NCBI GenBank assembly: GCA_024281095.1
Contig: JAMXLJ010000138.1
Location: forward strand, 20,888 to 84,887
Direction of reading: 5' to 3'
Source: Acidimicrobiia bacterium
Lineage (GTDB): Bacteria; Actinomycetota; Acidimicrobiia; IMCC26256; JAMXLJ01
DNA length: 64,000 bases
The notes under the pieces are model-generated. The model ran no database searches. It saw nothing but the letters and a program-made list of their open reading frames with translations, and was not told the DNA's origin. Position numbers and translations under genes: made by a program. Shown piece by piece: positions 6,483 to 61,856 of this stretch; the first letter of the stretch is position 1, and every line of letters starts with the position of its first letter.

Positions 6483-7252
6483 GGCAGGCGCGCGAGGCGG
6501 CCGTCGACCCGGGCGAGCCCGTCGGCGACGAGTGACTCCAGCGCTTCGCGGTCGACGGTGGCGACGGGCACCGCTGCGGCGCGAAGCGTCGCCAGAACGT
6601 TGCCGCGCCGTTGACGGAACGAGCCTGCAAACCGGCCTTGTGGCGCGGCGCGTGTCTCGTCCGCGAGCGGGCCGCGTGCCGTGCAGGCCCGCGCGAGCGG
6701 GCACTCCTCGCAGCGCGGATTACGCGGGCGACACAGCAACGCGCCGACGTCCATGAGCGCGAGCAGCCGGTCGCGTCCGGTGAGCGGACCGGCAACGTCG
6801 CGCATCGCCGCTTCCGCGGCTCGCGGTGTGAGTCGCATGCCACGAACGCGCTCGACGACTCGACGCACGTTCACCTCCACCGCGACGACGTCGGCATCGT
6901 GGGCCTGGGCGAGCACCGCGTTGGCCGTGTACCGCCCGACCCCGGGCAGGGTCGCGAGATCGTCGGGCCATCCCGACGCCGCGATCGCCGTCGCCGCCTC
7001 CCACAGGCGGCGGGCCCGACGCGGGTAACCGAGCCGGCCCCACGCCTCGATGACCTCACCGGGGCCCGCGGCGGCCGTCGCCTCGGGCGTGGGGAAGCGG
7101 TCGATGAACGCGGGCCATGCCGCCGCGACCCGCGGCACCTGCGTCTGGTGCAGCATCACCTCCGACACGAGGATCGGCCAGCGGTCGCGCGTCGCCCGCC
7201 AGGCAAGATCGTGACGGCCGTGGCGGAAGTACCAGTGCGCGAGCGCGCTCAC
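6479..7252 (-). CDS. mutY: A/G-specific adenine glycosylase (MutY-like), no C-terminal NUDIX domain visible
   Basis: SEVMLHQTQVPRV, LPGVGRYTANAV, 4Fe-4S CRPRNPRCEECPLARAC; 257 aa. Confidence 0.85.
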   Translation of the reverse strand: MSALAHWYFRHGRHDLAWRATRDRWPILVSEVMLHQTQVPRVAAAWPAFIDRFPTPEATAAAGPGEVIEAWGRLGYPRRARRLWEAATAIAASGWPDDLATLPGVGRYTANAVLAQAHDADVVAVEVNVRRVVERVRGMRLTPRAAEAAMRDVAGPLTGRDRLLALMDVGALLCRPRNPRCEECPLARACTARGPLADETRAAPQGRFAGSFRQRRGNVLATLRAAAVPVATVDREALESLVADGLARVDGRLARLP

Positions 7253-9147
7253 GTCGTGGTGGTCGTCGAGGACCCGCTGAACTGACCCACCGTGATCGTG
7301 ACGGTGGAGCCCTGCGGCGCCTGCATGTTGCCCTGCGGATTCTGGGCGAGCACGAGCCCGTCGTGTGACGCGGTCGACGGAACGGTGACGACCTGCACCT
7401 TGAACCCGGCTGCGCTCAGGGTCGCCTGAGCCTGCGACTGCGTGGTGCCGGTCACGTCGGGGACCGTGGCGTTTTGCGGACCGGTCGAGACGAACAGCTT
7501 CACCGTGCTGCCGCGCGCGGCCTGCGTGTTGCCGGCCGGGTCCGTGCCGATGACCTGACCCGCGGGCACGGTGTTGCTCGGCTGATTGACGCGCTGGACC
7601 TTGAACCCGGCCGCGGTCAACGTCTGCGTCGCGGTCACCTGGTCGTCGTTCTGCACTTGCGGCACGCTCACCGGAGCGGGGCCGGCCGAGACCATGACCG
7701 TCACGACGGCACCCCTCTGCACCTGGGCCCCGGGCGGCGGGTCGGTGCTGATCACGACGTTCGGCTGGATGTTCTCGCTCGGCGTGGTCTGCTTGTTGAC
7801 CCTCAGGCCGAGGCCGGAGAGCGTCAGGTTCGCCTGGTCGAACGTCTGGTTCGTCACGTCGGGCAGCGCGAACGGGCCCGCGCCGCTGCTGACGCGCAGG
7901 GTCACGGTGTCGCCCTTGTGGATCTTCGTGCCCGCAGTCGGGCTCTGGCTGACGACGTTGCCGGCCGGGACCGTGTCACTCGTCACCGGCTCCGTCTTCA
8001 CCTTGAAGCCCGCACCGACGAGCGTGAAACGCGCGGTCGCTTCCGGCTGATTCACCACGTTCGGCGTCGCGACCGTCTTGCCGCCACTGTTCCCGAGGAG
8101 CAGGACCAACGCGACGATGGCCGCGCCTAGCAGGAGGAGCGCCGCGATGACGGCCAGGATGGGCCCGCGTGACCGGCGTCGTTCCTCTTCCACGGTGCGG
8201 CGCGCGACCGTCGACGGCACCGGGGCCGCGGCGACGGTCTGTTGCGCCGCGGTCGGTTGCACCGCGGTCATGGATCCCGTGATCGCCGCGACCTCTGCCG
8301 TGACCGGCGCGGCGATGGGCGGCTGGCCGCGCTGGAAGCGCAAGAGGTCCGTTCGCAGATCGTCGGCCGACTGGTAGCGCGAGTCGGGGTCCTTCGCCAT
8401 GGCGGTCAACACGATGCGTTCGAAGTCGGGTGGCAACGCGCCGACGCGTTGCGACGGCGGCTGCACGTCTTCGCGTACGTGCTTGTACGCGACCGCGACG
8501 GGCGTGTCGCCCGAGAACGGCGGCGTTCCGGTGACCATCTCGTAGAGCACGACACCGAGCGAGTACACGTCGGAGCGCCCGTCGCAGGGCAGCCCCTGTG
8601 CCTGCTCGGGCGAGAAGTACGTGGCCGTACCCATGACGGAGCCCGTCTGCGTGAGACCCTCGCTCGTGCCGGCGCGGGCGATCCCGAAGTCGGTGACCTT
8701 GACGATGCCGCTCGGCGTGATCAGCACGTTGCCCGGCTTCACGTCGCGGTGCACGACGCCGGCGCGGTGCGCGTAGCCGAGCGCGCCCGCGATGTCGGCG
8801 CCGATCTGCGCCGCCTCGTGGGGCGACAGCCGGCCGCGTGAGCGGATGAGGTCGCGCACGCTTTGACCGTCGACGTACTCCATGACGATGAAGTACGTGT
8901 TGTCCTCCTGGCCCCAGTCGTAGATCGCCACGATGTTGGGGTGGCTCAGGTTGGCGGCGGCCTGGGCCTCTCTGCGGAACCGCTCCACGAAGCTCTGCTC
9001 GCGTGCGTACTCCGGGAAGAGGACCTTGACGGCCACCGGACGGTCGAGCAGTTGATCCCGCGCGAGGTAGACCTCGGCCATCCCACCGCGCGCGAGCACG
9101 CGGTCGACCTCGTAGCGATTGGAAAAGGAGCGAGGATCCGCTGCCAT
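7249..9147 (-). CDS. pknB: Ser/Thr protein kinase PknB with about 4 extracellular PASTA domains
   Basis: VHRDVKPGNVL, DFGIAR, TM segment, then four PASTA repeats. Confidence 0.96.
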   Translation of the reverse strand: MAADPRSFSNRYEVDRVLARGGMAEVYLARDQLLDRPVAVKVLFPEYAREQSFVERFRREAQAAANLSHPNIVAIYDWGQEDNTYFIVMEYVDGQSVRDLIRSRGRLSPHEAAQIGADIAGALGYAHRAGVVHRDVKPGNVLITPSGIVKVTDFGIARAGTSEGLTQTGSVMGTATYFSPEQAQGLPCDGRSDVYSLGVVLYEMVTGTPPFSGDTPVAVAYKHVREDVQPPSQRVGALPPDFERIVLTAMAKDPDSRYQSADDLRTDLLRFQRGQPPIAAPVTAEVAAITGSMTAVQPTAAQQTVAAAPVPSTVARRTVEEERRRSRGPILAVIAALLLLGAAIVALVLLLGNSGGKTVATPNVVNQPEATARFTLVGAGFKVKTEPVTSDTVPAGNVVSQSPTAGTKIHKGDTVTLRVSSGAGPFALPDVTNQTFDQANLTLSGLGLRVNKQTTPSENIQPNVVISTDPPPGAQVQRGAVVTVMVSAGPAPVSVPQVQNDDQVTATQTLTAAGFKVQRVNQPSNTVPAGQVIGTDPAGNTQAARGSTVKLFVSTGPQNATVPDVTGTTQSQAQATLSAAGFKVQVVTVPSTASHDGLVLAQNPQGNMQAPQGSTVTITVGQFSGSSTTTTT

Positions 9148-14818: not shown

Positions 14819-16576
14819 TCAGTGCTGGTCGAATTCCCGGAGCCCCGGAAGCACGCGGACGTGCTCCACGCGCACCGAGTCCAACGTGTTCTTGTCGAGT
14901 CCGAGAAGCGTCAGGATCGTCGGGGCGACCTGATACGTGCGCACGGGCTGGTCCACGGTCCGAGCCTGTGCCTCGTGCTCGGCCAAGCGCCTGCCGTCGA
15001 CGACCAGCATTGCGACATGCGTGTCGTTGGCGGAGAACCCACCGTGCTCGGCAACCTTCTTCACGCTCTTCGAGTAGATGGTGCCCACGATTGGTTGGAT
15101 GATGATGTCCGGCGTACGGGGATCCGTGGCCGGGTTGCCGAACTGATCCTCGAGCGGCTCGCCGGTGAGCAGCGTCTGGATCCGGGCCGTGTTGGCGCCC
15201 TTCCGATCTTTCTCGAGTGCCGCGACGGCCGGCGCCACGCCGGCGGAGTGCTGGTACCACATCAGCGAGACGTCGTCGTCGATGGTGAAGTCAGGCTGGG
15301 TGACGCCGGCATTCGTCAGGACCGCGTTTTCGGCGCTGCCGATCATGTGCAGCTGCTTGGGGTCGATGGGCGATTGCCCGTGCTTGGCACTGATGATGAT
15401 CTGCGTCGACGACAACAGATGCTTCGCCTTCAGCTCGTCGACCATCGAGCCGAGCGCGGTGTCGACGAAACCGATCGCGCCCTCGAGCTGCGGGGTGAAG
15501 GTCAGCGTGCCGGGCATGTAGCCGCCCGGCGTGTAGCCGGCCTGGCACGGGATCGGACGCTGCTTGGAGGTCGTGTTCCAGTCGCAGAAGTTCGGGTCGA
15601 CGAGCTTCTGGCCGACGCTCACCGCTTGGAAGTTCATCCCGAAGATCGCCGGGACCGGAGCGTGGTTCGTACCGACCGAGTTCCAGCCGTCGATCTGGTT
15701 GAGGATCGCGTCGACCTTGACCTGGTCGTACGACTCGGTGTCGCCGACCGAGTCGGTGATCGCCGCGCCCGGGAACTTGGTCGTGTCCCGCGGGAAGCTC
15801 ACGATGTGAGTGGTTCCGACCCGGGTCGTCTTCAGTGTCGGCGGGATGATGTCGGCGTTGATCTCGGTCTGGAACGGGTCGTCGACCGCGTTCGGGGTGC
15901 CGTGACCGGCCACGAGCCCGTTGGCAGCCGGGTGCTTGTCGGCCCATGCGGTGTACAGCTTGGCCGCGTGCGCCACGCTGAAGATCGAGTTCACGCGGTT
16001 GAAGTCGTTGGGAAAGACCGGCACGCATTTCCCATTCACGACGGCGCGATTGAGCTGGGCCGGGTCGACCCCCTCGTTGAGGATCGTGCGGGTGCCGTTC
16101 GGGTTGCTGAACGTCGGCGCACCGTTGTCGACGTTCTCGAAGTACTGCGCCTCGGCTCCCGCCGGCGGGGTGCAGTCCTGCTTGCCCGAAGCCAGCTGCG
16201 CCGGAGCCGTGAAGAACGTCCGGTCGTACGAGTCGTCGTAGTACACACCCGAAAGCTTGGGATCTGCTCCGGTGGTCAGGCCGACGATGCCCGGGGAGGA
16301 GTCGCTGGGCTTGGAAGTCGCGGCGTTTGTGTACGTCGTGCCGTAATGGGCGAGCTTCGCAAGATTCGGGCAGGCGCCAGCGGCCTCGCACTGTGCGAGG
16401 TCGAAGGCGTGGAAGCCGTCCACGCTGATGAGGAGCACATGGCGCGTACGCCCGGACGGATTGGCGGACGCCGGAGACGCGACCGCGGCGAGCCCGCCCA
16501 CGAGCACGAGGCCGGCCACCGCACTGGCGAACCAGCGGCGAAATCGATGCATTCGGATCCTCCCGGGAGACGTCAC
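14819..16576 (-). CDS. Secreted type I phosphodiesterase / alkaline phosphatase family protein
   Basis: Signal peptide; VLLISVDGFHAFDLAQ...; ISAKHGQSPIDP motif. Confidence 0.85.
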   Translation of the reverse strand: MTSPGRIRMHRFRRWFASAVAGLVLVGGLAAVASPASANPSGRTRHVLLISVDGFHAFDLAQCEAAGACPNLAKLAHYGTTYTNAATSKPSDSSPGIVGLTTGADPKLSGVYYDDSYDRTFFTAPAQLASGKQDCTPPAGAEAQYFENVDNGAPTFSNPNGTRTILNEGVDPAQLNRAVVNGKCVPVFPNDFNRVNSIFSVAHAAKLYTAWADKHPAANGLVAGHGTPNAVDDPFQTEINADIIPPTLKTTRVGTTHIVSFPRDTTKFPGAAITDSVGDTESYDQVKVDAILNQIDGWNSVGTNHAPVPAIFGMNFQAVSVGQKLVDPNFCDWNTTSKQRPIPCQAGYTPGGYMPGTLTFTPQLEGAIGFVDTALGSMVDELKAKHLLSSTQIIISAKHGQSPIDPKQLHMIGSAENAVLTNAGVTQPDFTIDDDVSLMWYQHSAGVAPAVAALEKDRKGANTARIQTLLTGEPLEDQFGNPATDPRTPDIIIQPIVGTIYSKSVKKVAEHGGFSANDTHVAMLVVDGRRLAEHEAQARTVDQPVRTYQVAPTILTLLGLDKNTLDSVRVEHVRVLPGLREFDQH

Positions 16577-47807: not shown

Positions 47808-48032
47808 CGAGCGAGGTATCGGACGACGATTCGCCGTTCCGTTACCGCGCGCTCACCAGCTCGTTGCCTTTTGTGGCTACCGTCGACTTTCGACGAGTCC
47901 GATTCAAGAACGTGCCCGCGACAGACGATGCACAGGGGGACGGGGACTCGAGGTTCCCTCCCGAGCCGGAGGATGATGGCTTTGTCGGCGATGGGTGAAG
48001 CGGACCGGGACCCGAGGTCCGGAACGGACGCC

Positions 48033-48389
48033 ATGATCGACCTCACCGCGCCGGCCCTCCGTAGCGTCGCACCGCCGCACACGATCTACGACGAGGTGCG
48101 CCGGGTCATCGTCGACCGCGGGCTGACCCGTGGTCGCGAGCACACCCGGCGCGGGCAGGTCGGCCTTGCCGGCGCGATCGAGGTCGCCGTGGCGGAAGGT
48201 GCCGGCGTGCGGCAGACGCCGCGCCCGCGCCAGGGATCACGCATGGCCCGTGAGGCGCGCATCGCGCGGCACCTGCGGGAGCTCGCCGGTACGAGCAGCC
48301 TTGCGGCCTGGATCGACGCGCGAGGCCGCTCGTTGAACGACGTGTTCGATCTGCTGACGCAGGCTGCGGTGGCGTTTCCCGAGGACTGA
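48033..48389 (+). CDS. Small hypothetical protein (DUF6197-like, uncertain)
   Basis: RGLTRGREHTRRGQVGLAGAIEVAV...SLAAWIDARGRSLNDVFDLLTQA. Confidence 0.5.
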   Translation: MIDLTAPALRSVAPPHTIYDEVRRVIVDRGLTRGREHTRRGQVGLAGAIEVAVAEGAGVRQTPRPRQGSRMAREARIARHLRELAGTSSLAAWIDARGRSLNDVFDLLTQAAVAFPED

Positions 48390-48687: not shown

Positions 48688-50730
48688 ATGGCAATGATGC
48701 CGGAGCGTTGGGCGGGCACGCGCAAGTCCGTGTCCATGGAGGCAGGCGCGGCAGCGGGGAGCGCGTGGGGTGGGCTCGATGCCCAACCCGAGTTTGCGCT
48801 CACCGTCATCGTGCCGACGCGCAACGAAGCTGCGAATGTCGAGGCGCTGCTCGAGCGCGTCGACGCCGCGCTTCTGGGCATGCCGGCGGAGGTCGTGTTC
48901 GTCGACGACAGTGACGACACGACGCCGGACGTGATCGACGCCGTGGTCCGGTCGCGCCGCTTTGCCGGCAACCTCGTCGTGTCGCTGCTGCACCGTCCGG
49001 TCGGCACACGCGACGGTGGCCTCGGTGGCGCGGTCGTCGCCGGTCTGCGGCTCGCGCGCTCGCCGTGGGTCGCGGTGATGGACGGCGACCTGCAGCACCC
49101 GCCGGAGCTGCTCGTCAAGATGTTGGAGGCGGGCGAGCGCGAACACGCGACGCTCGTCGTCGCGAGCCGCTACCGCGAGGGTGGCGACAGCGCGGGCCTC
49201 GCGGGCTCGACGCGCACGGTCGTGTCCATCGCCGCGTCCGCCGCGGCAAAGGCCACGTTCCCGCGTGCGCTGCGCTCCGTCACCGACCCGATGAGCGGGT
49301 TCTTCATGGTCCGTCGTGACGCCGTGGACCCGAACGCGCTTCGGCCCCGCGGCTTCAAGATCCTCATGGAGATCGCGGTGCGCACGCCCGAACTGCGCGT
49401 GGCGGAAGTGCCCTACACCTTCGGTGAGCGCTACGCCGGCGAGAGCAAGGCCAACAGCCGTGAGGGCGTCCGTTACCTGCGCCACCTGGGCCGGCTCCGC
49501 ATCGACCTCGCGCGTCAGCAGGCGCAGATGCGTGCCGAGTCGAAGGCGTCGACGCACCGGTACGACATCCACGGCATCATCACCGTCGAGGCCGACGCCC
49601 GGCTGCCCGAGCTCGAGGCGTTCCGTGTCCGCGCGCTGGACGGTCCCCCGACCATCCGCGTGCGTCTCGGCAAGCTGCCGGAGTCACCGAGCCGGTCGCG
49701 GCGCGACCCGTTCCGGCGCCAGATCCGTTACACCGAGACGCTCGGCAACCTCGGGTTCGCGGCCGACATCGCAATCGGCGAGCGCATCGAGGTGCTCGCG
49801 GCACCGTTGCTGCGCCACTCGCCGCACGTGTTGTACACGAACCTCGTCGAGCCGATCCTGCGGTGGAGCTTTGTCGCACGCGGGTACGCGCTCGCGCACG
49901 GCGCGTGCGTCGTCGAAGGTGACGACGCGTTCATGATCACGGCCCGCACCGACACGGGCAAGACGACCACGATGCTGAAGCTGCTCGACGCGAAGCCCTA
50001 CGACTTCGTCGCCGACGACCTCACGATCGTCTGCCCCGACGGGCGTGTCCTGCCGTACCCGAAGCCGCTGACCATCAGCAACCACACGCTGCACGCGGTC
50101 AACACGCCCTTGCTGAACTGGCGTGAGCGCACCACGCTGCCGCTGCAGAGCCGGGTGCACTCCCGTTCCGGGCGGAAGTTCGCCTTCCTGCTCACCCGTA
50201 CCGGCCTGCCGGTTGCGACGATCAACACGCTCATGCAGCTGGTGATCCCGCCGCCGAAGTACCCGGTGCAGCGGTTGGTGCCGGGCGTGCGCACCGCGAA
50301 GCCGGCGAAGCTGGCCGCGCTGTTCGTGATCCAGCGGTCGAACGACGGCTTCGAGTGGCTCGACGAGGACGACGCGCTCGAGATCCTGCTCGGCAACTGT
50401 GAGGACGCGTACGGGTTCCCGCCGTACCACTCGATCGAGGACTTCCTGCTCTCGTCGAACGGCGACAACCTGCGCGCGGTCGAGCGTCAGATCATCGCCG
50501 GTGCACTGGAAGGCCGGCGGGCGGCGTTGCTGTCGAGCACCACGCTCGACTGGGCGACGCGGATTCCGGGTCTCATCGAGCAGGTCCAGAACGACCTGCG
50601 CGTGGTTCCCGGCGACGCGACGTCATGGTCACGTGCCGCGGTGACCGAGCTGCCGGGGGGCAACGGCCACAACGGAAACGGCGACGGACACACGGTCACG
50701 TCCATCGTCCCCGTTGAGGCGCCGGAGTGA
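48688..50730 (+). CDS. Fusion: polyprenol-phosphate GT2 glycosyltransferase + HPr kinase/PEPCK-like P-loop domain
   Basis: TVIVPTRNEAANVEALLERV...MDGDLQHPPELL...SGFFMVRR; then GACVVEGDDAFMITARTDTGKTTTMLKLLDAKPYDFVADDLTIVCPDGRVLPYPKPLTIS. Confidence 0.85.
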   Translation: MAMMPERWAGTRKSVSMEAGAAAGSAWGGLDAQPEFALTVIVPTRNEAANVEALLERVDAALLGMPAEVVFVDDSDDTTPDVIDAVVRSRRFAGNLVVSLLHRPVGTRDGGLGGAVVAGLRLARSPWVAVMDGDLQHPPELLVKMLEAGEREHATLVVASRYREGGDSAGLAGSTRTVVSIAASAAAKATFPRALRSVTDPMSGFFMVRRDAVDPNALRPRGFKILMEIAVRTPELRVAEVPYTFGERYAGESKANSREGVRYLRHLGRLRIDLARQQAQMRAESKASTHRYDIHGIITVEADARLPELEAFRVRALDGPPTIRVRLGKLPESPSRSRRDPFRRQIRYTETLGNLGFAADIAIGERIEVLAAPLLRHSPHVLYTNLVEPILRWSFVARGYALAHGACVVEGDDAFMITARTDTGKTTTMLKLLDAKPYDFVADDLTIVCPDGRVLPYPKPLTISNHTLHAVNTPLLNWRERTTLPLQSRVHSRSGRKFAFLLTRTGLPVATINTLMQLVIPPPKYPVQRLVPGVRTAKPAKLAALFVIQRSNDGFEWLDEDDALEILLGNCEDAYGFPPYHSIEDFLLSSNGDNLRAVERQIIAGALEGRRAALLSSTTLDWATRIPGLIEQVQNDLRVVPGDATSWSRAAVTELPGGNGHNGNGDGHTVTSIVPVEAPE

Positions 50731-51494
50731 CGTCGGGTCACTCCGGCCGTCACAACCGCAACCAGACAACCCCATCGACCAGCCCCCCGGACGGTCTCGA
50801 CATGAGTGTGCGTGTAGAAGATTCGGCGCCCGGCGCCGTGCAGGCGCCGGCACCCCGGCTCGTGGCGCCGCTGATGCGGCGCTGGCCGGACCTCTGGCAG
50901 CGGGCGCTGCGCTTCGTGCGCTTCGGCCTCGTGGGCGTCACCGGGATCGCGGTGAACGAGGCTGCGCTCGCGGCCGCCGTCGCGGTGGGCGCACCCGAGT
51001 TGCTGGGCGTCGTGATCGCGACGCAGTGCTCCTCGATGTGGAACTTCGCGCTCGTCGAGCGGTGGGCGTTCCGCGGTACCTCCTACCAGCGCCGGCTGTG
51101 GCACCGCCTGGTGATGTTCTTCGCGGTCAACAACGCCGCATTGTTGCTGCGTGGCCCGATCATCGTGGGCCTGAAGCACGCCGGCGTCGGCGTGCTCGTC
51201 GGCAACCTGGTGTCGCTGGTCGTGCTGATCCTCCTCCGGTTCGCGCTGTCCGACTCGTGGATCTGGGGCAAGGCGGAGACGGAGTCCGCGCTCACGGGTG
51301 TTCCCGAGGACGAGATCGCGCTGCTCGACGGCAAGGACCCGCGCTCGCTGCACGCCACCACCATGGCCGGCATGACCACCAACGGGACGCCGTCGGTGGT
51401 CGAGCTGACGGGGGAGGTGAGGGCGCGCTACGCGGACGAAGAGGTCCGCGGAGGTAGCAGTCGCCCCAGGTTTCCGGCTGCGGGCACTACGTAG
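50727..51494 (+). CDS. GtrA-family membrane protein
   Basis: FVRFGLVGVTGIAVNEAAL...WNFALVERWAFRG; GTGA overlap with preceding gene. Confidence 0.9.
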   Translation: MTSGHSGRHNRNQTTPSTSPPDGLDMSVRVEDSAPGAVQAPAPRLVAPLMRRWPDLWQRALRFVRFGLVGVTGIAVNEAALAAAVAVGAPELLGVVIATQCSSMWNFALVERWAFRGTSYQRRLWHRLVMFFAVNNAALLLRGPIIVGLKHAGVGVLVGNLVSLVVLILLRFALSDSWIWGKAETESALTGVPEDEIALLDGKDPRSLHATTMAGMTTNGTPSVVELTGEVRARYADEEVRGGSSRPRFPAAGTT

Positions 51495-51618
51495 CCGCAC
51501 CGGCCCCGCACTCGTTCCCGAAGCGACGGCCGCCGGCACGCTGGTCGCCGCGCGCGACGTCGACGTCGAGGAGACGCCAGCGGCGCCGGCCGCGACGGAG
51601 CCCGAGGATCGGCCGCTC

Positions 51619-53112
51619 GTGCCGGCGTGGCTGTGGCTCGCCGGCATCCTCGTCGTCGCGGTGTTCGTTCGGGTCTGGGGCCTGAACCGGGTCGGATTCA
51701 ACAGCGACGAGACGGTCTACGCCGGGCAGGCCGCGTCGATCGCGGGCAACGTCACCCTGCAGAAGTTCTTCCCGATCTACCGCGCGCACCCGCTGCTGTT
51801 CCAGACGACGCTGTCAGTCCTCTACCAGTTCACGACGAGCGACTACGCGGCCCGTCTCCTCAGCGTGGTCTTCGGTGTCGGCACGGTCGTGGTCACGTAC
51901 CTGACCGGCCGGTTGCTGTACGGACGCCGGGCCGGGCTCATCGCGGCCGCGCTGCTCGCCGTGATGCCATACCACGTCGTCGTCACGCGGCAGGTCCTCC
52001 TCGACGGGCCGCTCGTGTTCTTCTCGACGCTGACGCTGTACCTCGCGGCGCGTTACGCGGTGACGCAGCGACCGGTGTGGCTCTACGCGACCGGTGCCGG
52101 CATGGGGCTGACGTTCCTCGCGAAGGAGACCGGCATCGTCCTCGTCGCCGCGGTCTACGCGTTCCTCGCGCTCGCACCGCGCGTGAAGGTGCGCATCCGC
52201 GACCTCATCGTGTCGGGCGGGATCATGGCCTGCATCATGCTGCCGTACCCGCTTTCGGTGGCGTTCGGGAACTCGTCGAAGACCGGGAAGTCGTTCTTCG
52301 CGTGGCAGCTGCTGCGCCGGCCGAACCACGGCGCGTTGTTCTACTTCACGAACGTGCCGGCCGCCCTCGGCTACATCGTGTTCGCGGCTGCGCTCGCCGG
52401 GTTGTGGGTGCTTCGCAAGGAGCGCAGCTGGCGCGAGGTGTTGTTGCTCTCGTGGATCCTCGTCCCCGTCGGGTTCTTCCAGCTGTGGCCGGTGAAGGGA
52501 TTCCAATACCTGCTTCCCATCGCGGCGCCGTTCGCGATCCTTGCCGCGCGGTCGCTGGCCCGCATGCCCGTTCGCAGGCATCGCTCGTCCGGTGAGTTCA
52601 CCGGGTTGTCGCCGATCGTGAGCGGTGTCGCTCTCGCGGCTATCGGTTTGAGCCTCCTGCTGCCGACGATCCAGCGCATCAGCCCGTCGTCGTCGGGCAC
52701 GTTCCTCGCCGGTTCGGGTGGAGTCGCCGGAGGGCGCGAGGCCGGCGAGTGGGTCGGCAGAAACGTGCCGCGGAACGCGCAGCTGCTCGCCCTCGGGCCG
52801 TCGATGGCCAACATCATCGAGTTCTACGGCGACCGGAAGACGTACGGGCTGTCGGTCAGCACCAACCCGCTGCATCGCAACCCGGTGTACGAGCCCATCG
52901 CGAACCCCGACCTCCAGATCCGTCGCGGCTCACTGCAGTACCTCGTGTGGGACTCGTATTCCGCCAACCGTTCGCCGTTGTTCGCGGCCAAGCTGCTGCG
53001 CTTCGCGGAGAAGTACCACGGCCGGGTGGTGCACACGGAGTCGGTCAAGGTCTCGAGCGGCGGCGTTCAGGGGCAGCGTCGCGTCGTCGTGATCTACGAG
53101 GTGCGGCCATGA
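51619..53112 (+). CDS. GT39/PMT-like integral membrane glycosyltransferase
   Basis: NRVGFNSDETVYAGQAASIAG; multi-TM; LAKETGIVLVAAVYAF. Confidence 0.9.
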   Translation: MPAWLWLAGILVVAVFVRVWGLNRVGFNSDETVYAGQAASIAGNVTLQKFFPIYRAHPLLFQTTLSVLYQFTTSDYAARLLSVVFGVGTVVVTYLTGRLLYGRRAGLIAAALLAVMPYHVVVTRQVLLDGPLVFFSTLTLYLAARYAVTQRPVWLYATGAGMGLTFLAKETGIVLVAAVYAFLALAPRVKVRIRDLIVSGGIMACIMLPYPLSVAFGNSSKTGKSFFAWQLLRRPNHGALFYFTNVPAALGYIVFAAALAGLWVLRKERSWREVLLLSWILVPVGFFQLWPVKGFQYLLPIAAPFAILAARSLARMPVRRHRSSGEFTGLSPIVSGVALAAIGLSLLLPTIQRISPSSSGTFLAGSGGVAGGREAGEWVGRNVPRNAQLLALGPSMANIIEFYGDRKTYGLSVSTNPLHRNPVYEPIANPDLQIRRGSLQYLVWDSYSANRSPLFAAKLLRFAEKYHGRVVHTESVKVSSGGVQGQRRVVVIYEVRP

Positions 53113-54503
53113 GCGCGCGCATGCGACGGGTACGACGTGCGCGGCGCGTCGGCGGCACGGTCGTGGTCGCCGGCCTCGCCCTGTGGCTCGGTGGCATCGT
53201 GCCCGCGTCGGCGGCACACACCGGCACGAGCAAGCCGCTTGCGACCGCGCCGCCGGCGGCGCCGACCACCACACCGTTGCGTCACTTCATCAGCGTGATG
53301 CAGGAGAACCACACCTTCGACAACTACTTCGCCGGCTACCACGGTGCCGACGGCACTCCGGCGAAGGCATGCGTCCCGATCGATCCCACGGGCCAGACGT
53401 CGAAGGACTGCGTCAGCCCGTTCCATATCGGCAAGCGACCGATCCAGAACCTCGCGAGCGGTGTCACGGAGTTCAACACGGCGTTCGCGAAGGGTGCCAT
53501 GAACGGGTTCGCCGCTGCGCAAACCTCGCGGGGCGTTCCGGTCGACCTCCCGATGGGCTACTACGACGACCGCGACATCCCGTACTACTGGAACCTTGCC
53601 GACGAGTACGTGCTGTTCGACCGCTTCTTCACGTCGATCGGCGGCGGAAGCGTGTGGAACCACATGTTCTGGGTGACGGGCACCCCGGGCGACACCAGCC
53701 GCGAGACGGTCCCGCCGAACGGGTACCCCGACACGACGCGCACCGTCTTCGACGAGCTCCAGGCGAAGGGTGTGTCGTGGAAGTTCTACGTGCAGAACTA
53801 CGACCCGAACATCACGTACAAGGGCGGGCGTGACGCGAAGCGGGGCGCGCAGGTGCCACGGGTGCCGCTGCTGGCCATCCCGCGGTTCGTCAACAACGAC
53901 GCGCTCATGGCTCACGTGGCCCCGCTCGACGACTATTTCAGCGACCTGCAGAACGGAACGTTGCCGGCGGTGTCGTACATCGTCCCCTCGGGCAGCAGTG
54001 AGCACCCACCGGGCAGTATCCAGAGCGGCCAGAACTTCGTGCGCAACATCGTCAATTCGTTGCAGCAGAGCAGTTCGTGGTCGTCGAGTGCGCTGCTGCT
54101 CACCTACGACAGCTGGGGGGGCTGGTACGACCACGTGCCGCCGCCCGCGGGCTACGGACTGCGCACGCCGGCCCTTCTGGTGAGCGCCTTGGCCAAGAAG
54201 GGCGTGGTCGACCACACGCAGCTCGACTTCACGTCGATCCTGCGGTTCATCCAGCAGAACTGGAGCCTCCCGCCCCTGCCCGGCCAACGCCAAGTCCAGG
54301 ACTTCAGTGGCGCGTTTGCGTTCTCCGCACCCGCACGGCAAGCGTCGTTCGTGTCATCGGAACGGCATCCCGCGGTGGCGCCGGCGCCGACGCGAGGGAT
54401 CATCTACGTCGCCTACGGCGGCGCGATCGCGCTGTCGCTCGGGCTCATTGCGGGCGCAGTTGTTCTCACGATGCGGCGCAACCGAACGATGGAACCCGCG
54501 TGA
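53109..54503 (+). CDS. Secreted phosphoesterase (phospholipase C / acid phosphatase family) with C-terminal TM
   Basis: FISVMQENHTFDNYFAGY; YDSWGGWYDHVPPP; C-terminal TM IALSLGLIAGAVVLTMRRNR. Confidence 0.92.
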   Translation: MSARMRRVRRARRVGGTVVVAGLALWLGGIVPASAAHTGTSKPLATAPPAAPTTTPLRHFISVMQENHTFDNYFAGYHGADGTPAKACVPIDPTGQTSKDCVSPFHIGKRPIQNLASGVTEFNTAFAKGAMNGFAAAQTSRGVPVDLPMGYYDDRDIPYYWNLADEYVLFDRFFTSIGGGSVWNHMFWVTGTPGDTSRETVPPNGYPDTTRTVFDELQAKGVSWKFYVQNYDPNITYKGGRDAKRGAQVPRVPLLAIPRFVNNDALMAHVAPLDDYFSDLQNGTLPAVSYIVPSGSSEHPPGSIQSGQNFVRNIVNSLQQSSSWSSSALLLTYDSWGGWYDHVPPPAGYGLRTPALLVSALAKKGVVDHTQLDFTSILRFIQQNWSLPPLPGQRQVQDFSGAFAFSAPARQASFVSSERHPAVAPAPTRGIIYVAYGGAIALSLGLIAGAVVLTMRRNRTMEPA

Positions 54504-55672
54504 TGAGCCCCCGACGCGTCCTGACGGTGCTCGCGCCGATCGGCGTGGTCGTGGGCATGCTCCTGGGCGCCGCGGCGCCGGCGATGGCAGCGAACACGCC
54601 GCCGCCCCAACGACCGCACCCCAAGGGCACGCCGGCGCCGAAGCGCGCGCATCCCAAGCTGAACCAGGCGCTGCCCCAGGGCTTCAACCAGCTGAGCATC
54701 CAGACCACGCCTCCGGTGGCCGGCGCGAAGTTCACCTTTGCCGGAGCGACGATCACCACGGACAACGCCGGGATCGGGACGATGCTCATCACACCGGCCC
54801 AACGCCTGATCCTGCGCGACAACCGCCAGGACGAGCTGGTGGTCGCGACACCCACCGTGGACGTGAAGCAGGGCGTGCGCGCCCAATTCACCGGATGGTT
54901 CGGCGCCGGGGTCTACCGTGCCGGCGTGGAGTCGCAGGTGGCGACGTTCGAATTCGACTACCTCACGAGCTTCAACTTCACCAATTTGAAGGGCCGCGTC
55001 GTCCCGCCGTCCCTCATGAGCTCGCTGCAACTCCAGAGCAGCATCGGCGAGACGATCGATCTCGACACCGCGGATCCGGTCTGGCTGCAGGGGAGTCAGG
55101 TCGTCACCGGCAGCAACGGTCTCGAGAGCAAGGACATCTTCTACAAGGTCAACAGCGTCGTGGTCGCAGGCTCGAACGTGGTGAACCGCGCGCAACAGCG
55201 CTTCGTGCCGAGCCAGCAACAGCTCGCGACGGTGAAGCTCCTCTTCTACTCGGCGCGCTTCGTCGCGACGGACGCGATGTTCGGCGGTGGCATCGGCACG
55301 GGCATCGACCTGCAATATCCCGACGGGACGACGCGCCACATCCCGTTCGCACGGGGCCACGCGGTCACGGTCGACGACCTGCCCCGTGGCGACTACCACG
55401 TGACGGTCGTCGGTGGCGGTCTGAAGATGGCGCGGCCGGTGTCGATCTCGCGCGACCAGGAGGCCGACCTCGACGTCATCAGCTACGTCGACGTCGCCGT
55501 GGTCGGCGTCGCACTCCTCCTCCTGGCGCTCGTGATCTTGTGGTTCGGCCTGCAACTGCGCCGTCGACACCGCGGGTACAACCGGCGTCTGGCGCGCCAG
55601 GCCCGTCGTGATCGCAAGGCGGCGAAGCAGGCCCCGATCGCGGGTGTCGCGGCGGCGGTCGATCAGCCGTGA
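54503..55672 (+). CDS. Unrecognised exported protein with signal peptide, beta-rich ectodomain and C-terminal TM
   Basis: Signal peptide VLAPIGVVVGMLLGAAAPAMA; TM VDVAVVGVALLLLALVILWFGLQL; basic C-tail. Confidence 0.8.
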   Translation: MSPRRVLTVLAPIGVVVGMLLGAAAPAMAANTPPPQRPHPKGTPAPKRAHPKLNQALPQGFNQLSIQTTPPVAGAKFTFAGATITTDNAGIGTMLITPAQRLILRDNRQDELVVATPTVDVKQGVRAQFTGWFGAGVYRAGVESQVATFEFDYLTSFNFTNLKGRVVPPSLMSSLQLQSSIGETIDLDTADPVWLQGSQVVTGSNGLESKDIFYKVNSVVVAGSNVVNRAQQRFVPSQQQLATVKLLFYSARFVATDAMFGGGIGTGIDLQYPDGTTRHIPFARGHAVTVDDLPRGDYHVTVVGGGLKMARPVSISRDQEADLDVISYVDVAVVGVALLLLALVILWFGLQLRRRHRGYNRRLARQARRDRKAAKQAPIAGVAAAVDQP

Positions 55673-57123
55673 ACACCAGCGCGTGGCGCCGCCTGATCGC
55701 GCCGGCCCTCGTGGGAATCGCTTTCCTCACCGGTGTCTCCGCGACGAGCGGTGCCGCGGCGGCGCCGCGCGTCGCGGCGTCGTCGGGAAGCGGCGGCCCG
55801 TCCGCCACCAGCGCGCAGCCGGGCCACGTGCCGGTGCTCGCGTACTACTACATCTGGTTCGACGCCCGGTCGTGGGAGACGAAGAAGTCGGATCTTCCCG
55901 AGTTGGGCAAGTACTCGAGCGACGACGTCGCGGTGATGCGTCAGCACGTGCAGTGGGCGAAGAGCGCCGGCATCGACGGCTTCATCGTGAGTTGGAAGCA
56001 CACTCCGACGCTCGACGCGCGGTTGGCGAAGCTCGTCGACATCGCCGAGCAGGAGAACTTCAAGCTTTCGATCATCTACCAGGGTCTCGACGTCAACCGG
56101 GACCCGCTTCCCGGCGGCGCCGCGACCGTGGCACGCGACCTCGACTGGTTCAGCTGGAACTACTCGCAGCGGGCGCCGTTCAACATGTTCCCGAAGCCGC
56201 TCGTCATCTGGTCGGGCACCTGGGGGTTCTCGGCTGCGGACATCGCGGGAGTCACCGCGACGCGCCGCGACCATCTGCTGATCCTCGCCTCCGAGCGCAA
56301 CGTCGACGGGTACAACCGGTTGGCTCGCGTGGTCGACGGCGACGCCTACTACTGGTCATCGGTGAACCCGGCGACATACGACGGCTACGCGCAGAAGCTC
56401 GTCGAGATGCGTCAAGCCGTCGACGCGAGCGGCGGCCTGTGGTTCGCCCCGGCCGCACCGGGATTCGACGCGCGGCGCAATCAGGGAACCTCGGTGGTTC
56501 CGCGCAACGACGGCAAGACGTTCGAGCAGGAGATCGCGGCCGCGCTCGACTCGAGGCCCGACGCGCTCGGGCTCATCAGCTGGAACGAGTTCACCGAGAA
56601 CAGCCACATCGAGCCGAGCCGGAACTACGGGTTCCGATACCTCGACGTGGTCGCGCAGCGTCTCGGCGACGGCGTGCCGGTTCCCGAGTTGCTGCCCGGC
56701 GCGGCGCATGGCGGCTCGAGCTCGGCCGGCAACCAGGCCGACGGGGCCGACTCGAGCTCGTCGTCGAGTCACGGGTTCCCGACCGGCCTCGTCGTGTTCC
56801 CGGCGTTCCTGATCTTCTTCGTGGTCGTGTTGTTCGTGGCGGGCCGTCGTGCCCGACGGCCGGACCGGCCCGACGGCTGGGGCGGTGGCCTGTGGCGTCC
56901 GGGGGGCCCGCGGCGACCGGCGGCACCGGGGAGCCGTCGAGCCCGGCGCGAGGCGCGACAGGCCCAGACGTTTGCGCGGCTGCGCCGGCTCGGGAAGGCG
57001 GCACCCTCACGCGTACCGTCGCCGTCGCCGTCGCCGTTCACGTCCGGCACCACAGCGCAAGATGGGGCGCTGCCTGTGCTGTCCGGCCTGCCCGCGGGGC
57101 AACGCCGTGACGGCTTCGACTGA
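55669..57123 (+). CDS. GH99-like (endo-mannanase-like) exported glycoside hydrolase with C-terminal TM
   Basis: PVLAYYYIWFDARSW...AKSAGIDGFIVSWK...LGLISWNEFTENSHIEPSRNYG. Confidence 0.8.
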   Translation: MNTSAWRRLIAPALVGIAFLTGVSATSGAAAAPRVAASSGSGGPSATSAQPGHVPVLAYYYIWFDARSWETKKSDLPELGKYSSDDVAVMRQHVQWAKSAGIDGFIVSWKHTPTLDARLAKLVDIAEQENFKLSIIYQGLDVNRDPLPGGAATVARDLDWFSWNYSQRAPFNMFPKPLVIWSGTWGFSAADIAGVTATRRDHLLILASERNVDGYNRLARVVDGDAYYWSSVNPATYDGYAQKLVEMRQAVDASGGLWFAPAAPGFDARRNQGTSVVPRNDGKTFEQEIAAALDSRPDALGLISWNEFTENSHIEPSRNYGFRYLDVVAQRLGDGVPVPELLPGAAHGGSSSAGNQADGADSSSSSSHGFPTGLVVFPAFLIFFVVVLFVAGRRARRPDRPDGWGGGLWRPGGPRRPAAPGSRRARREARQAQTFARLRRLGKAAPSRVPSPSPSPFTSGTTAQDGALPVLSGLPAGQRRDGFD

Positions 57124-59158
57124 CCGCGCCGATCCTCCGCCGGGTCGCCCGGGCGACGCCCTCTCGCGCCGCACCTTCATCGGCTCGGGCCTTGCGGCGC
57201 TCGGCGCGCTCGCCGTCGGTGGCTGTGCGGGCGGGCCCGGTGAGGGGCCGGCGGCGCCGGTGCTCGACCCGGGGCCCGGCCGAATCACCGTGGACGGCGC
57301 GACGCGTCTCCGGCTCTCGTGGCGCGCAGTTCGGGGCGCCCGCTCGTACGACGTCGAGCTCAACGGCTCCGTGGTCGCGGCCGGCGTCACCGAGCCCGCG
57401 GTCGAGCTCGCGTACGGCGACGGCGCGACCGGCTTGGTCGAGGGGCACAACCGCTGGCGTGTGCGTGCCCGCGACTCGGCGAGTGGCGCGTGGAGCCGGC
57501 CGGGCACGTTCGACGTCGTCGCGCGCGGCGCCGTGTTGGCCCGCCGGTTCGACCGTGAGGACGACGGGCCCATCGAGCTCACGACCCGTAGGGCGAGCGG
57601 CACCACACTGTCGGTCGCTGCGGCCGCGGCGCTCGGCGCGGGCAAGGGCCTCCTCATGCGGGGTGCCGACCCCGCCGACGCGGTCGCGTCGAAGAACCTC
57701 TTCACGCAGCCGCTGAGCGAGTGCTGGCTCCGTCTGGCGGTGCGACCGAGCCGTTGGCAGCGCGCCGGCGCGCGTGTCCACCTCGCGCGGATCCACTCCC
57801 AAACGGGGAGCGCGGCCCGTGAGGCGCTGCAGTGGATCACGGGCGAGGGCATCGCAGCGGAAAGCGTGGCCCGGGCCGTCGCACCGGTGCGCGCCGGCGC
57901 CTGGACACAGGTGCAGCTGGGCGTGTTGGCCGACGGCAGCGTGGAGCTGTGGACCTACGACGGGCGGCGTGAGCACCTCGTCGGCCGGGGCCGGAACCCC
58001 GGTCTGGCCGGTGCGGTCAAGGACACGCTCGCGATCGGCAACGACCTCACGCGCACGGGATCGACGTTCGAGGTGCATCTCGACGGCTTCGCGGTCGGCG
58101 AGCACCGGCTGCCCTGGGCGAACACCGCGCCGCCGATCACGCCGGCGCGACCGGTTCGTCTCGATCCCGCGTCGTTGCCGGCCCGGTTCAGCTTCTGCTT
58201 CGGATCCTGCAACAACGCAAAGTCGGCGCCGTACCACGACACCGCGGTCGGCGTCGCCGCCCGTCTCCAGCCCGATTTCTTCGTCCATCTCGGCGACTAC
58301 GGATATCCCGACAGCAATGCGTACCGGCCGTCGGTCGCGGGCTACCAGGCGCTGTGGAGCGATCTGTTCTTCGAGGAGCAGCTCGAGCTCCTCTCGCGCA
58401 AACCGTGGCTGTACATCGCGTCCGACCACGACATGGGCCGCAACGACTGTGACATCACGAGCTGCAGCCCGGTCGCGAGTCGTGCGTTCGCGCAATGGCA
58501 GAACAATGACCCGAGCGCCGACGGACAGGGCCGTTACGGGAGCGTGCTGCTGGACAGAGGTCGCGTGCTGCTCGTGTGGACCGAAGGCATCGCATACCGC
58601 AGTCTCCTCACCGCGCCCGACGGGCCGGGCAAGACGGTGCTCGGAGCGAAGCAGAAGACGTGGCTGTTGGGGCTGCTCGCATCGACCACGGCGCGGCTCG
58701 TGATCATCGCGTCACAGACATCGGTCGGTTTCGTCACCGGGAGCGACTGGGCCCAGTACCCGACGGAGCGGGCCGAGCTGATCCACGCCTGCCAGTCGTC
58801 GCCGGCCGCGGCGGTGCGGTTCATCAGCGGCGACTACCACCACGCAGGCTGGTCGCGCTTCGGTCCGAAGGTCGCCGAGTGGCTGGCGGCTCCGATGGCC
58901 GAGTTTCCCGAGGGCGCGAACCCGCCCGGGCCGCTGGTCGACCAGTCTGCACTGGCCGCAATCGGCGCCGGCTTCTCGAGCCGGCCGGAGGCGTTGCGCG
59001 GCGAGAGCTGGTCGGCGTTCAACGCGTCTTCGTCGGTTGGCCGCGTGACGATCGACGGCGACGCGCGCACAGCCACATTCGAGCTGCTCGACGCGCGCGG
59101 TCAGCTTCGTAACGACGGTGCCGCGTTCACGTTCCGCGAGATCGTGCGCTACGCGTAG
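57107..59158 (+). CDS. PhoD-like phosphatase, Tat/lipoprotein signal, N-terminal FnIII/ConA-like modules
   Basis: SRRTFIGSG Tat motif and VGGC lipobox; FCFGSCNN, HLGDYGYPD, YIASDHDMGRNDCD, SGDYHHAGW. Confidence 0.88.
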   Translation: MTASTDRADPPPGRPGDALSRRTFIGSGLAALGALAVGGCAGGPGEGPAAPVLDPGPGRITVDGATRLRLSWRAVRGARSYDVELNGSVVAAGVTEPAVELAYGDGATGLVEGHNRWRVRARDSASGAWSRPGTFDVVARGAVLARRFDREDDGPIELTTRRASGTTLSVAAAAALGAGKGLLMRGADPADAVASKNLFTQPLSECWLRLAVRPSRWQRAGARVHLARIHSQTGSAAREALQWITGEGIAAESVARAVAPVRAGAWTQVQLGVLADGSVELWTYDGRREHLVGRGRNPGLAGAVKDTLAIGNDLTRTGSTFEVHLDGFAVGEHRLPWANTAPPITPARPVRLDPASLPARFSFCFGSCNNAKSAPYHDTAVGVAARLQPDFFVHLGDYGYPDSNAYRPSVAGYQALWSDLFFEEQLELLSRKPWLYIASDHDMGRNDCDITSCSPVASRAFAQWQNNDPSADGQGRYGSVLLDRGRVLLVWTEGIAYRSLLTAPDGPGKTVLGAKQKTWLLGLLASTTARLVIIASQTSVGFVTGSDWAQYPTERAELIHACQSSPAAAVRFISGDYHHAGWSRFGPKVAEWLAAPMAEFPEGANPPGPLVDQSALAAIGAGFSSRPEALRGESWSAFNASSSVGRVTIDGDARTATFELLDARGQLRNDGAAFTFREIVRYA

Positions 59159-59164
59159 CCCTGT

Positions 59165-61699
59165 TCACGGGCCGACACGCGACGTGCCGAACGCGGCGTC
59201 GTCGAACACGACGTCGTACGTGCGTCCGCTCTGTACTTCGCCGATCTGCATCTTGCCCACCGGAGTAGTGCCGAGGTTCGTCGTCGACGACAACGCATCG
59301 ACGCGTGCACCGTCGGCCCAGACCTCCACGGCGCTCGACGTGCCGTTGATCAAAGTGTGGAGCTCGACCTCGTGCCACGAGCCGAGCGACAGCACCAGCG
59401 CGCTCGTGGTGGTCGTGCCGGCGACGTCGTTGCGCACGCCGAGCTGACCCGATGCGGTGACGAACACGTACGCCAGCGAGCCGTCGGCGGCGGTTCGGTG
59501 TCGCAGGAGGTTGACCTGACTTGACGCGGTCTTCAGGTCGAAGAACACGCGGGAATAGGAGTCGGTGTAGGTCGACGGCAGCACCTTCTTCGCATAGGTG
59601 GCGCCAACCGTGGTGTTGCCCTCGGCTGCGAACGCGCCGTTGTGCACGGTCGTGCTCTGCACCGTCAGTCCGCCGGTGATGGACCAGGCCGACAGGCTGC
59701 CCGACTCGAAGCCGTCGCTGAAGAGCGGTGGTGCCGAGCCGGCGGGTGTGTTCACCGTCAGCGCCGTGCTCGGCGGCGATGGGTTCCCGGCGCCGTCGCG
59801 GGCGACCACCTGGTACTGGTACGTGGTGGACGGCGCCACGGTGCCGTCGAAGTAGCTCGTGGTGTTGCCCTGGGTGCTGGCGATCACGGTGCCGTCGCGC
59901 AGCACGTCGTACCCGCCGATCCCGCTCGGATCCGATGCCGCGCCCCAGGACAGCGTGACGCTCGACGAGGTGGCGTTCGCGAGCAGACCGCTGGGCGGTG
60001 CCGGAGCCGTCGTGTCGATGGTCCACTTCGCCGCGGCCGGCGACGGGTCGGTCTGCCCGTTGGCCTTGGCGGTGACGGTAACGGTGTGCGAGCCCACCGC
60101 GAGCCCGCTCAGGTTCAGCGGGCTGCTGCATGCGCTCGCAGCCGCGCCGTCGACGCTGCACGTGAACGTCGCCGGGGTGATCGACGAGTGGAATGCAACC
60201 GACGCGGTCGTCGCGTTGGTTGGGCTCGCGGGCGCGCTGTCGATGATCGTGTCGGGCGCGACACCGAACGTGTAGCTCTGTACGTCGAAGGTCCGCCCGA
60301 GCGAGTCGGTCGGCGTGACCGTCACGGTGTTGCCGCTGACAGTCACCTTGATGAAGTGGGACACGCGCGCCGCGCTGTCGGGGAGGGGCGCGGCGCCGCA
60401 TTTCGACCCGATGTTCTTCGACGGCGACCAGCCGATGCCGTACTTGTCGACCGCGCTGCAGCCGACCTCGGCGATCGGTTGGAGTGTGGCGCCGCCGCCA
60501 CCGGTGATGTAGTTCGGGAACGTTCCGGGCGTGCCGGGCACGTTGCGCTGGTAGAGGTGCGCGTGGCCGCTGAACGCCAGGTTGACGCCGTTCGACGCGA
60601 GCAGGCCTTCGACGCTGTTCGGGCCCTGCAGGAACGTGTCGGAACTCTGGGCCTTCTGGTCCGAGTACATCGGATAGTGGAAGAAGGCGAATTTCAGCCC
60701 GCCGGGGTGGGCCGCGAGGTCCGACTTGAGCCACTGGTATTGCGCAGTGCCCGGGGCCCAGTGTGCGGCGTAGTCGTCGGAGTACACGGTGCCGGTGCCC
60801 ACGTTGCCGTCAGCCCAGTCTGCTTGCAGCACGTAGAAGCGCGCGTTACCGGCGTCGAATGCGTACCAGCTGCTCGGGTAGCTCGCGGACGCCGTGCCGT
60901 TCACGCAGCAGTACGTCTCCTTGACGTAGCGGCCACCCGAAGTCGCCGCCGCGGTGTCGGACGGCCAGATCATCTGCTCGGTGCTCCGCGTGCCGGTGGC
61001 GTTCGTGAAGCCGTGGTTGCCGCTGGCCGCGAACATCGGGATGGTGTCGCCGGGCACTGTCCAGAACGACCGTCCGAACACCGCGCTGATGTTGGCTCCG
61101 GTCTGTTGCAGGTCGCCGTAGTTCGTCTGGCTGCCCGACTGGTACGCATTGTCACCCACGCTGATCGCGAAGCGGGCCCCGCTCGTCGAGATCAGGCTCA
61201 TGATGTTCGCGAGGTTCGGGTTGCCCGTGGCGTCGACCTGACCCCAGTCGCCGAGCACCGCGAACGAGAACGTCTCCGGTGAGCCCGCGGGAACCTGCGT
61301 CTTGAACACCGGCGACGCATCGGCGCCGAGCAGGTCCGTCGTGCCGAGATACACGCGGTAGCAGTAGGAGCCGGCCGCGGGCAGCGACAGTTGCGCGACC
61401 CACTGGTACTCGCTGACGCCGTTCACGGTGATCGGGTACCTCGTGGCCGTGACGGACGTGTTCGCGGTGCAGGTGCCGCCGGTGCCCACGGTGCCCCACT
61501 TCACCGAGCCTGTCGTGGCCGACTGGTCGGTGGCCCAGTTCACCTTGATCTGCGTGCCCACCGCGTCGGTGAGATAGGGATAGCGGCGCAGCTGTGTCGC
61601 GTTCGCGGCGCCGGTTGGCGCGACGGCGACGGCCACCAGACCCGCGGTGAGAAGGAACGTGCAGACGACTGCACGCAGCGTGCGATGACCCGACCCCAT
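59165..61699 (-). CDS. Secreted purple-acid-phosphatase-like metallophosphoesterase with FnIII and ConA/LamG-like C-terminal modules
   Basis: Signal peptide; VLGDWGQVD, SVGDNAYQSG, ASGNHGF, FSGHAHLYQRN; later FnIII PPSGLLANATSSSVTLSWGAASD. Confidence 0.92.
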   Translation of the reverse strand: MGSGHRTLRAVVCTFLLTAGLVAVAVAPTGAANATQLRRYPYLTDAVGTQIKVNWATDQSATTGSVKWGTVGTGGTCTANTSVTATRYPITVNGVSEYQWVAQLSLPAAGSYCYRVYLGTTDLLGADASPVFKTQVPAGSPETFSFAVLGDWGQVDATGNPNLANIMSLISTSGARFAISVGDNAYQSGSQTNYGDLQQTGANISAVFGRSFWTVPGDTIPMFAASGNHGFTNATGTRSTEQMIWPSDTAAATSGGRYVKETYCCVNGTASASYPSSWYAFDAGNARFYVLQADWADGNVGTGTVYSDDYAAHWAPGTAQYQWLKSDLAAHPGGLKFAFFHYPMYSDQKAQSSDTFLQGPNSVEGLLASNGVNLAFSGHAHLYQRNVPGTPGTFPNYITGGGGATLQPIAEVGCSAVDKYGIGWSPSKNIGSKCGAAPLPDSAARVSHFIKVTVSGNTVTVTPTDSLGRTFDVQSYTFGVAPDTIIDSAPASPTNATTASVAFHSSITPATFTCSVDGAAASACSSPLNLSGLAVGSHTVTVTAKANGQTDPSPAAAKWTIDTTAPAPPSGLLANATSSSVTLSWGAASDPSGIGGYDVLRDGTVIASTQGNTTSYFDGTVAPSTTYQYQVVARDGAGNPSPPSTALTVNTPAGSAPPLFSDGFESGSLSAWSITGGLTVQSTTVHNGAFAAEGNTTVGATYAKKVLPSTYTDSYSRVFFDLKTASSQVNLLRHRTAADGSLAYVFVTASGQLGVRNDVAGTTTTSALVLSLGSWHEVELHTLINGTSSAVEVWADGARVDALSSTTNLGTTPVGKMQIGEVQSGRTYDVVFDDAAFGTSRVGP

Positions 61700-61856
61700 G
61701 ATGCAAAGCTCCCCAGAAGGGGCCGGCGCGCACCTGCCGCGCACCAGCACCCCGCCCTTGACCCCAGACACGGAAGTCTACGGGGACCCGGCGCGCGATG
61801 TCGGTCAACCCGGGCGAAACGACGCACGTGGCCGCCCGGCTCGTAGCCTCACTTCC

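Follow-up and report, generated by a model that had tools for sequence, protein, structure and literature searches.

The gene at 48688..50730 (plus strand) of the DNA analysed here, a stretch of 64,000 nucleotides referred to as the window, raises the question of what a kinase-like domain, designated K, could contribute when it is joined to an enzyme of lipid-linked sugar synthesis. Sequence, profiles, a structural model and orthologues all indicate that the gene encodes a 680-residue fusion protein comprising a GT2 glycosyltransferase (DPM-synthase type) and a domain with the HprK/PEPCK fold. The open reading frame starts with ATG and displays a stop-free translation, coding-type codon positions and a GC3 of 0.91. 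Its product is 79% identical, across residues 2–680, to an orthologue from the same genus, and a homologue search revealed that the GT2-K fusion recurs in many genomes. The possibility that the fusion reflects chance, or a frameshift or assembly artefact, was rejected on the basis of this orthologue and the recurrence in independent genomes. A reading of the gene as mobile-element cargo was also discarded, as plasmid, phage and viral-contig collections contained no relative. An earlier note on this DNA had described a lipid-sugar synthase fused to a kinase-like domain, which the orthologue, the profiles and Foldseek bear out; the frame is real and intact and the motifs quoted from it are in place, with PTRNEAANVEALL starting at residue 43, MDGDLQHPPELL at residue 131, and VADDL and VLPYPKPLTIS occupying residues 441–445 and 454–464, respectively. 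The full-length model contains two well-formed domains separated by a long linking helix (residues 257–285; 49456..49542, +), which lies where homologues that are triple fusions (see below) carry the transmembrane domain of GtrA; the window protein has no predicted transmembrane segments.

The first third of the protein, which the note had taken to be a DPM1-like GT2, matches PF00535 of Pfam at residues 39–213 (E 1.4e-22), while the Pyrococcus DPM synthase (PfDPMS, 5mlz) aligns with residues 37–270 (E about 1e-39), consistent with that assignment. The catalytic domain, delimited by alignment to PfDPMS, extends over residues 37–275 (48796..49512, +). It is a GT2 of GT-A fold with the DxD, acceptor-phosphate and A-loop residues of PfDPMS, whose roles in the active site have been described (PMC5526996). 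All 13 donor, acceptor and A-loop residues are kept: Glu12, Asp39, Asp89, Asp91, Gln93, His94 and Arg117 of PfDPMS correspond to E47, D74, D132, D134, Q136, H137 and R161, and Arg131, Ser135, Phe177, Lys178, Arg202 and Lys208 to R176, S180, F223, K224, R248 and K254. Since these residues are retained, and nearly all are invariant in the homologues, the active site of the GT2 half is of the DPMS type and complete, down to the positions that contact mannose in PfDPMS. The sugar transferred is probably mannose. A mannose-1-phosphate guanylyltransferase (GDP-mannose pyrophosphorylase)-type gene is located just upstream of one related cluster (L103). PfDPMS resembles the window protein in its GT2 domain and, similar to the triple-fusion homologues, carries a transmembrane part after it; in contrast, PfDPMS lacks a kinase-like domain, and the transmembrane part in the window is a separate gene.

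Domain K (residues 288–640; 49549..50607, +) was defined from profiles, the model and Foldseek. A Pfam search of the 680-residue protein assigned no named family to this domain, and a PDB sequence search with a K profile returned zero matches. The nearest profile matches to the K core were the HprK-related kinases A/B and ScmC (TIGR04352, TIGR04355 and TIGR04249). Of 24 homologues, 18 matched the NCBIfam profile HprK_rel_A (best 1.7e-7) and 19 matched ScmC (best 4e-6), in most cases weakly. These families differ from K in gene context, and the window K scores only 11–18 bits against cut-offs of 125–200 (17.6 bits for TIGR04352, where the cut-off is 200). An AlphaFold model of K, built from the 24 homologues (pLDDT 89, pTM 0.88), retrieved PEPCK first in Foldseek (E 2.8e-6, prob 1.00) and HprK/P next (prob up to 1.00), the probabilities of these top matches being 0.9–1.0. 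ATP-dependent PEP carboxykinase (1ayl and others), although the best structural match, gave a TM-score of 0.46 on the query at 13% identity, and no PEPCK sequence family matched K above cut-off. Alignment of K with 11 true HprKs (hhalign; 71 columns, P 1.3e-5) superimposed His404, the Walker A motif and the DD pair; the spacing from Walker A to the kinase-2 DD is correct, and the histidine is upstream, as in HprK. The K domain belongs to the PEPCK/HprK superfamily. Foldseek and hhalign therefore agree with the note's view of the C-terminal half as an HprK/PEPCK-like P-loop domain, and the two outcomes it had named as counting against this view, a lack of HprK/PEPCK similarity or a generic ABC/AAA ATPase, did not occur when checked. 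A generic ATPase was rejected because the matches listed by Foldseek, at least 50, were nearly all PEPCK or HprK/P; AAA or ABC descriptions were absent from the 50 listed, and the AAA_22 profile gave an E of 0.088 on the 680-residue protein, under cut-off.

Comparison of 31 K sequences identified 60 invariant positions, including H404, D422, T423, G424, K425, T426, D443 and D444. His404 (49897..49899, +) is profile-aligned with the histidine of the HprK motif HGxMVD; the aligned Walker A motif, ARTDTGKT, comprises residues 419–426 (49942..49965, +), and the invariant DD of VADD (residues 441–444; 50008..50019, +) corresponds to the kinase-2 acidic pair of HprK/PEPCK. Other motifs are specific to the family, namely the near-invariant YPKPLTIS (residues 457–464; 50056..50079, +), the invariant PPPKY (residues 521–525; 50248..50262, +) and DAYGFPPY (residues 573–580; 50404..50427, +). 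Across the 31 sequences the motifs with no HprK counterpart are SxHVLYTNxxEPxxR, PKPxTxS, QSxxHSxxGR, PPPKY and NxxDAxxFPP. As judged from its sequence, K is a distinct family, a non-HPr branch added to the HprK/PEPCK superfamily. The proposal that K is more conserved than the GT2 was dropped as evidence, being true in 19 of 33 loci and tied in the window. The N-terminal motif of K, DIHG (residues 293–296; 49564..49575, +), is shared with distant standalone HprK-like proteins, three of which were observed (L081:7401-8465, L081:16285-17511 and L085:7477-8547); the first and the last of these start with DIHG, and the L081 pair, in the actinobacterial genome G038, is surrounded by several GT2 genes. 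At a further locus (L084:6486-7792) an HprK-like protein is followed by an apparent PqqD-like small protein, an arrangement that we take to resemble the HprK_rel_A/PqqD pairs.

Although K shares with HprK/P (TIGR00679, PF07475) its superfamily and the aligned histidine, Walker A and DD, the differences are substantial. The ExRGxGI signature of HprK is tied to phosphorylase function and comes after the point equivalent to YPKPLTIS; its ExRGxG core is invariant across the 11 true HprKs, whereas the ExRGxGI loop is absent from all 31 K domains, which possess a different N-terminal part (DIHG) and other C-terminal motifs. The window protein matches neither TIGR00679 (cut-off 240 bits) nor PF07475, and only 2 of 24 relatives display a weak match to TIGR00679 (best E 0.009). 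In 21 genomes of the window's order no protein scored above the TIGR00679 cut-off, and a search of 16 carrier genomes for PTS-HPr (PF00381) found it missing in 12, the window's genome (G000) being one of the 12. An HPr-kinase function for K was thus rejected: the host has no HPr, the signature is missing and the scores are far below cut-off. Of the two roles suggested in the earlier note, phospho-regulation is not supported in any HPr-kinase-like form, given the lack of HPr and HprK; phosphotransfer is a prediction.

The genes around the fusion offer a context for such a reaction. From 48688 to 57123 the genes lie on a single strand with mostly overlapping start and stop codons. A GtrA/DPMS transmembrane protein (50727..51494, +; PF04138, E 2e-14) overlaps the stop codon of the fusion gene, and is followed by a GT-C glycosyltransferase (51619..53112, +; start uncertain) that matches PMT_2 (PF13231, E 8.8e-21), is Agl23-like and is termed PMT below. 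Further downstream are a PLC/acid-phosphatase-like phosphoesterase (53109..54503, +; PF04185, E 4e-68; start inferred), an exported, C-terminally anchored protein that was assigned to no family but whose homologues contain Ig-like/CarboxypepD_reg domains (54500..55672, +; start inferred) and a GH99-like exported protein (55669..57123, +; PF16317, E 5e-14) with the motif WNEFTENSHIEP and a C-terminal transmembrane anchor. As each of these last three proteins begins with a hydrophobic segment of the signal type and has a transmembrane segment near its C-terminus, they should act outside the cell while held at the membrane. The next gene encodes a PhoD-like phosphatase with a Tat-type signal (57107..59158, +); it is conserved in the same genus, but its membership of the module is unsure. 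It faces a gene for a metallophosphoesterase with an fn3 domain (59165-61771, −), and both are present in a same-genus genome (L054).

The conserved cluster consists of a GT2, a GtrA flippase, K, the PMT, a PLC-like phosphoesterase, the exported Ig-like protein and a GH99-like hydrolase. While the recurrence of the GT2/HprK-like architecture that the note had proposed to search for was evident, the fusion is one of four arrangements of a single conserved cluster, which the note had missed. GT2, GtrA and K are all separate genes at L103–L107; GT2 is separate and GtrA fused to K at L080 and L108; GT2 is fused to K with GtrA separate in the window and 10 others; and at 15 loci the three form a GT2-GtrA-K triple fusion. 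Fusion and splitting of these components were repeated events because the K tree requires seven changes of arrangement, against a minimum of three. One of the seven may stem from L049, where a contig edge intervenes; its 'K alone' label was rejected as an artefact of that edge. In most bootstrap trees GT2-K splits into two clades. The mixing of phyla in the K tree suggests that K has been transferred horizontally. As the fusion is one arrangement of a conserved cluster, with GtrA (50727) and GT-C (51619) genes directly downstream in the window, a role in a glycan pathway is likelier than the free-standing form of phospho-regulation.

Actinomycetota, Chloroflexota, Thermomicrobiota, Acidobacteriota and Verrucomicrobiota all yielded copies of K, almost invariably within the same cluster. 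When the neighbours in the window were compared with homologous loci by tblastn, loci with enough downstream sequence contained the PMT in 23 of 25 cases, the PLC in 21 of 23 and the exported protein encoded from 54500 in 18 of 22, with GH99 present in 12 of 15. The PMT had no match in L052 and L041, and divergent Acidimicrobiales clusters yielded neither of the last two genes. Among 251 Chloroflexota genomes 10 have K; nine of these, and no other genome of the set, have the cluster-type PMT (E ≤ 1e-40), and the contig of the remaining one (G678) stops after K. The probability of this pattern arising by chance is about 1e-15 if genomes are treated as independent, which they are not. Of the 397 Actinomycetota genomes only G000 and G116 yielded a full K, and only these two yielded the PMT, so that throughout the 648 sampled genomes the cluster-type PMT is restricted to those that hold K. 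G116 contains two copies of this PMT (C160:2339-3844 and C9:5524-7191), of which the in-cluster copy shows an apparent insertion or gap. The exported enzymes may share a substrate, as suggested by a CBM96-GH99-phosphoesterase fusion (L036:1343-4144) and a CBM96-phosphoesterase fusion (L041:7250-8770). CBM96 recurs around the K family, with one such protein (L081:5109-7277) beside a standalone K relative.

The GT2, GtrA and GT-C proteins constitute a known multi-component transmembrane glycosylation scheme (PMC8035078), and the cluster encodes its GT-A lipid-phosphate-sugar synthase, GtrA-type flippase and GT-C enzyme. The reading that we favour, although tentatively, is that K provides a near-obligate kinase step in multi-component transmembrane mannosylation, working on the lipid-linked sugar, or next to it, ahead of flipping. 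The GT2 would generate polyprenyl-phosphate-mannose from GDP-mannose; K would carry out an ATP-dependent phosphorylation of the lipid-linked sugar, or of the carrier beside it, at the cytoplasmic face; the product of the adjacent GtrA gene would flip polyprenyl-phosphate-mannose; and the PMT would transfer the sugar to an extracytoplasmic acceptor. The exported phosphoesterase and GH99-like hydrolase could then trim or recycle the product, the PLC-family enzyme processing phosphodiesters in the product or freeing the carrier. Bacillus enzymes of other families are known to free UndP from UndP-sugars (PMC11898649). The kinase activity, its substrate and the order of these steps are all predictions. 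Since K is fused to the synthase in some loci and to the flippase in others, and these two handle one and the same intermediate, that intermediate would be its natural substrate. Phosphoglycosylated lasso peptides, in which HprK-like kinases operate beside sugar transfer, provide a precedent (PMC8498205). A bolder version, which we consider doubtful, is that K represents a new kinase class that phosphorylates the polyprenyl-phosphate-linked sugar itself before flipping, with the GT-C enzyme transferring a phospho-sugar that is processed by the phosphoesterase and GH99-like protein; this would amount to transmembrane phosphoglycosylation of a surface acceptor.

CsbB/GtcA/YfhO and their kin (PMC8035078, PMC7389260) likewise comprise a GT-A maker of the lipid-phosphate sugar, a GtrA-type flippase and a GT-C transferase. 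In the window cluster all three are encoded together; it differs in adding a near-obligate K as fourth component, an exported phosphoesterase, an Ig-like protein and a GH99-like hydrolase. It should be emphasized, however, that known three-component systems run without a kinase (PMC8035078), that the characterized HprK-like kinases cited use proteins or peptides and not lipids or sugars, and that the strong conservation of K at YPKPxTIS, QSRxHS, PPPKY and DAYGFPPY could signal a chemistry different from that of a simple kinase. In addition, a Verrucomicrobiota locus (L052:3846-7080) contains GtrA-K without GT2, PLC or GH99 within 6 kb; it adjoins a divergent membrane protein of no assigned family and is the sole clear departure from the cluster arrangement. 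The parts come from known superfamilies; what is new is a near-obligate HprK/PEPCK-fold component in a transmembrane glycosylation system. A literature search, whose coverage excluded most subscription papers, found no description of the fusion or the cluster, and a kinase is absent from the accounts it found of the widespread three-component sugar-transfer systems. The near-constant presence of K in one such system, fused to synthase or flippase, suggests that bacterial surface decoration involves an ATP-dependent step not recorded so far.

It could be argued that K is instead a regulatory protein kinase, possibly a kinase/phosphorylase, that phosphorylates the GT2, GtrA or PMT encoded alongside it and thereby tunes flux to the cell's energy state, in the way that HprK/P acts through HPr. 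HprK/P is an ATP-sensing protein serine kinase (PMC9138534), the HprK-related kinases are the closest profile relatives of K, and K is either joined to the membrane enzymes or encoded next to them. Regulators, however, usually come and go, whereas K is near-obligate and strongly conserved in several phyla; together with the missing HprK signature and the scarcity of PTS-HPr among carriers, this makes the explanation possible but improbable.

Less probable again is that K phosphorylates polyprenol, dolichol or another carrier lipid, making or regenerating polyprenyl phosphate for the GT2. If K fed acceptor straight to its GT2 partner, the fusion would be accounted for, and the exported phosphoesterase could free carrier outside the cell. 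Enzymes of the HprK/PEPCK fold are soluble, however, and we know of no lipid kinase among them; the GT2 can draw on the general polyprenyl-phosphate pool, and K goes with a single PMT subfamily, not with GT2s at large, the standalone DPMS-like GT2s of G004 and G015 being without K. We regard it as very unlikely that K phosphorylates Ser/Thr of a cytoplasmic protein or peptide that is later exported, glycosylated on the phosphate and cleaved at the phosphodiester by the PLC-like enzyme. The cluster does contain a phosphodiesterase-family enzyme, and kinases of lasso clusters phosphorylate peptide serine, pseudomycoidin carrying hexoses on such a phosphate (PMC8498205), but among the cluster's ORFs of at least 90 amino acids none stood out as a conserved gene for a small peptide, and the GtrA fusion argues for a membrane intermediate. 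Equally improbable is an ATP-binding allosteric sensor or scaffold for a GT2/GtrA complex that transfers no phosphate, to which the alanine at the first Walker A position and the missing HprK signature might point, as the invariance of His404, GKT and both aspartates in 31 of 31 sequences is the pattern of an active enzyme.

Other genes in the window include a further exported phosphodiesterase-type protein (14819-16576) and, just upstream of the cluster, a DUF6197 gene (47871-48389, +), similar small genes being apparently upstream in L031 and L054. The window also encodes a serine/threonine kinase with four PASTA domains (7249-9147, −), a type of protein that is ordinary for Actinobacteria.
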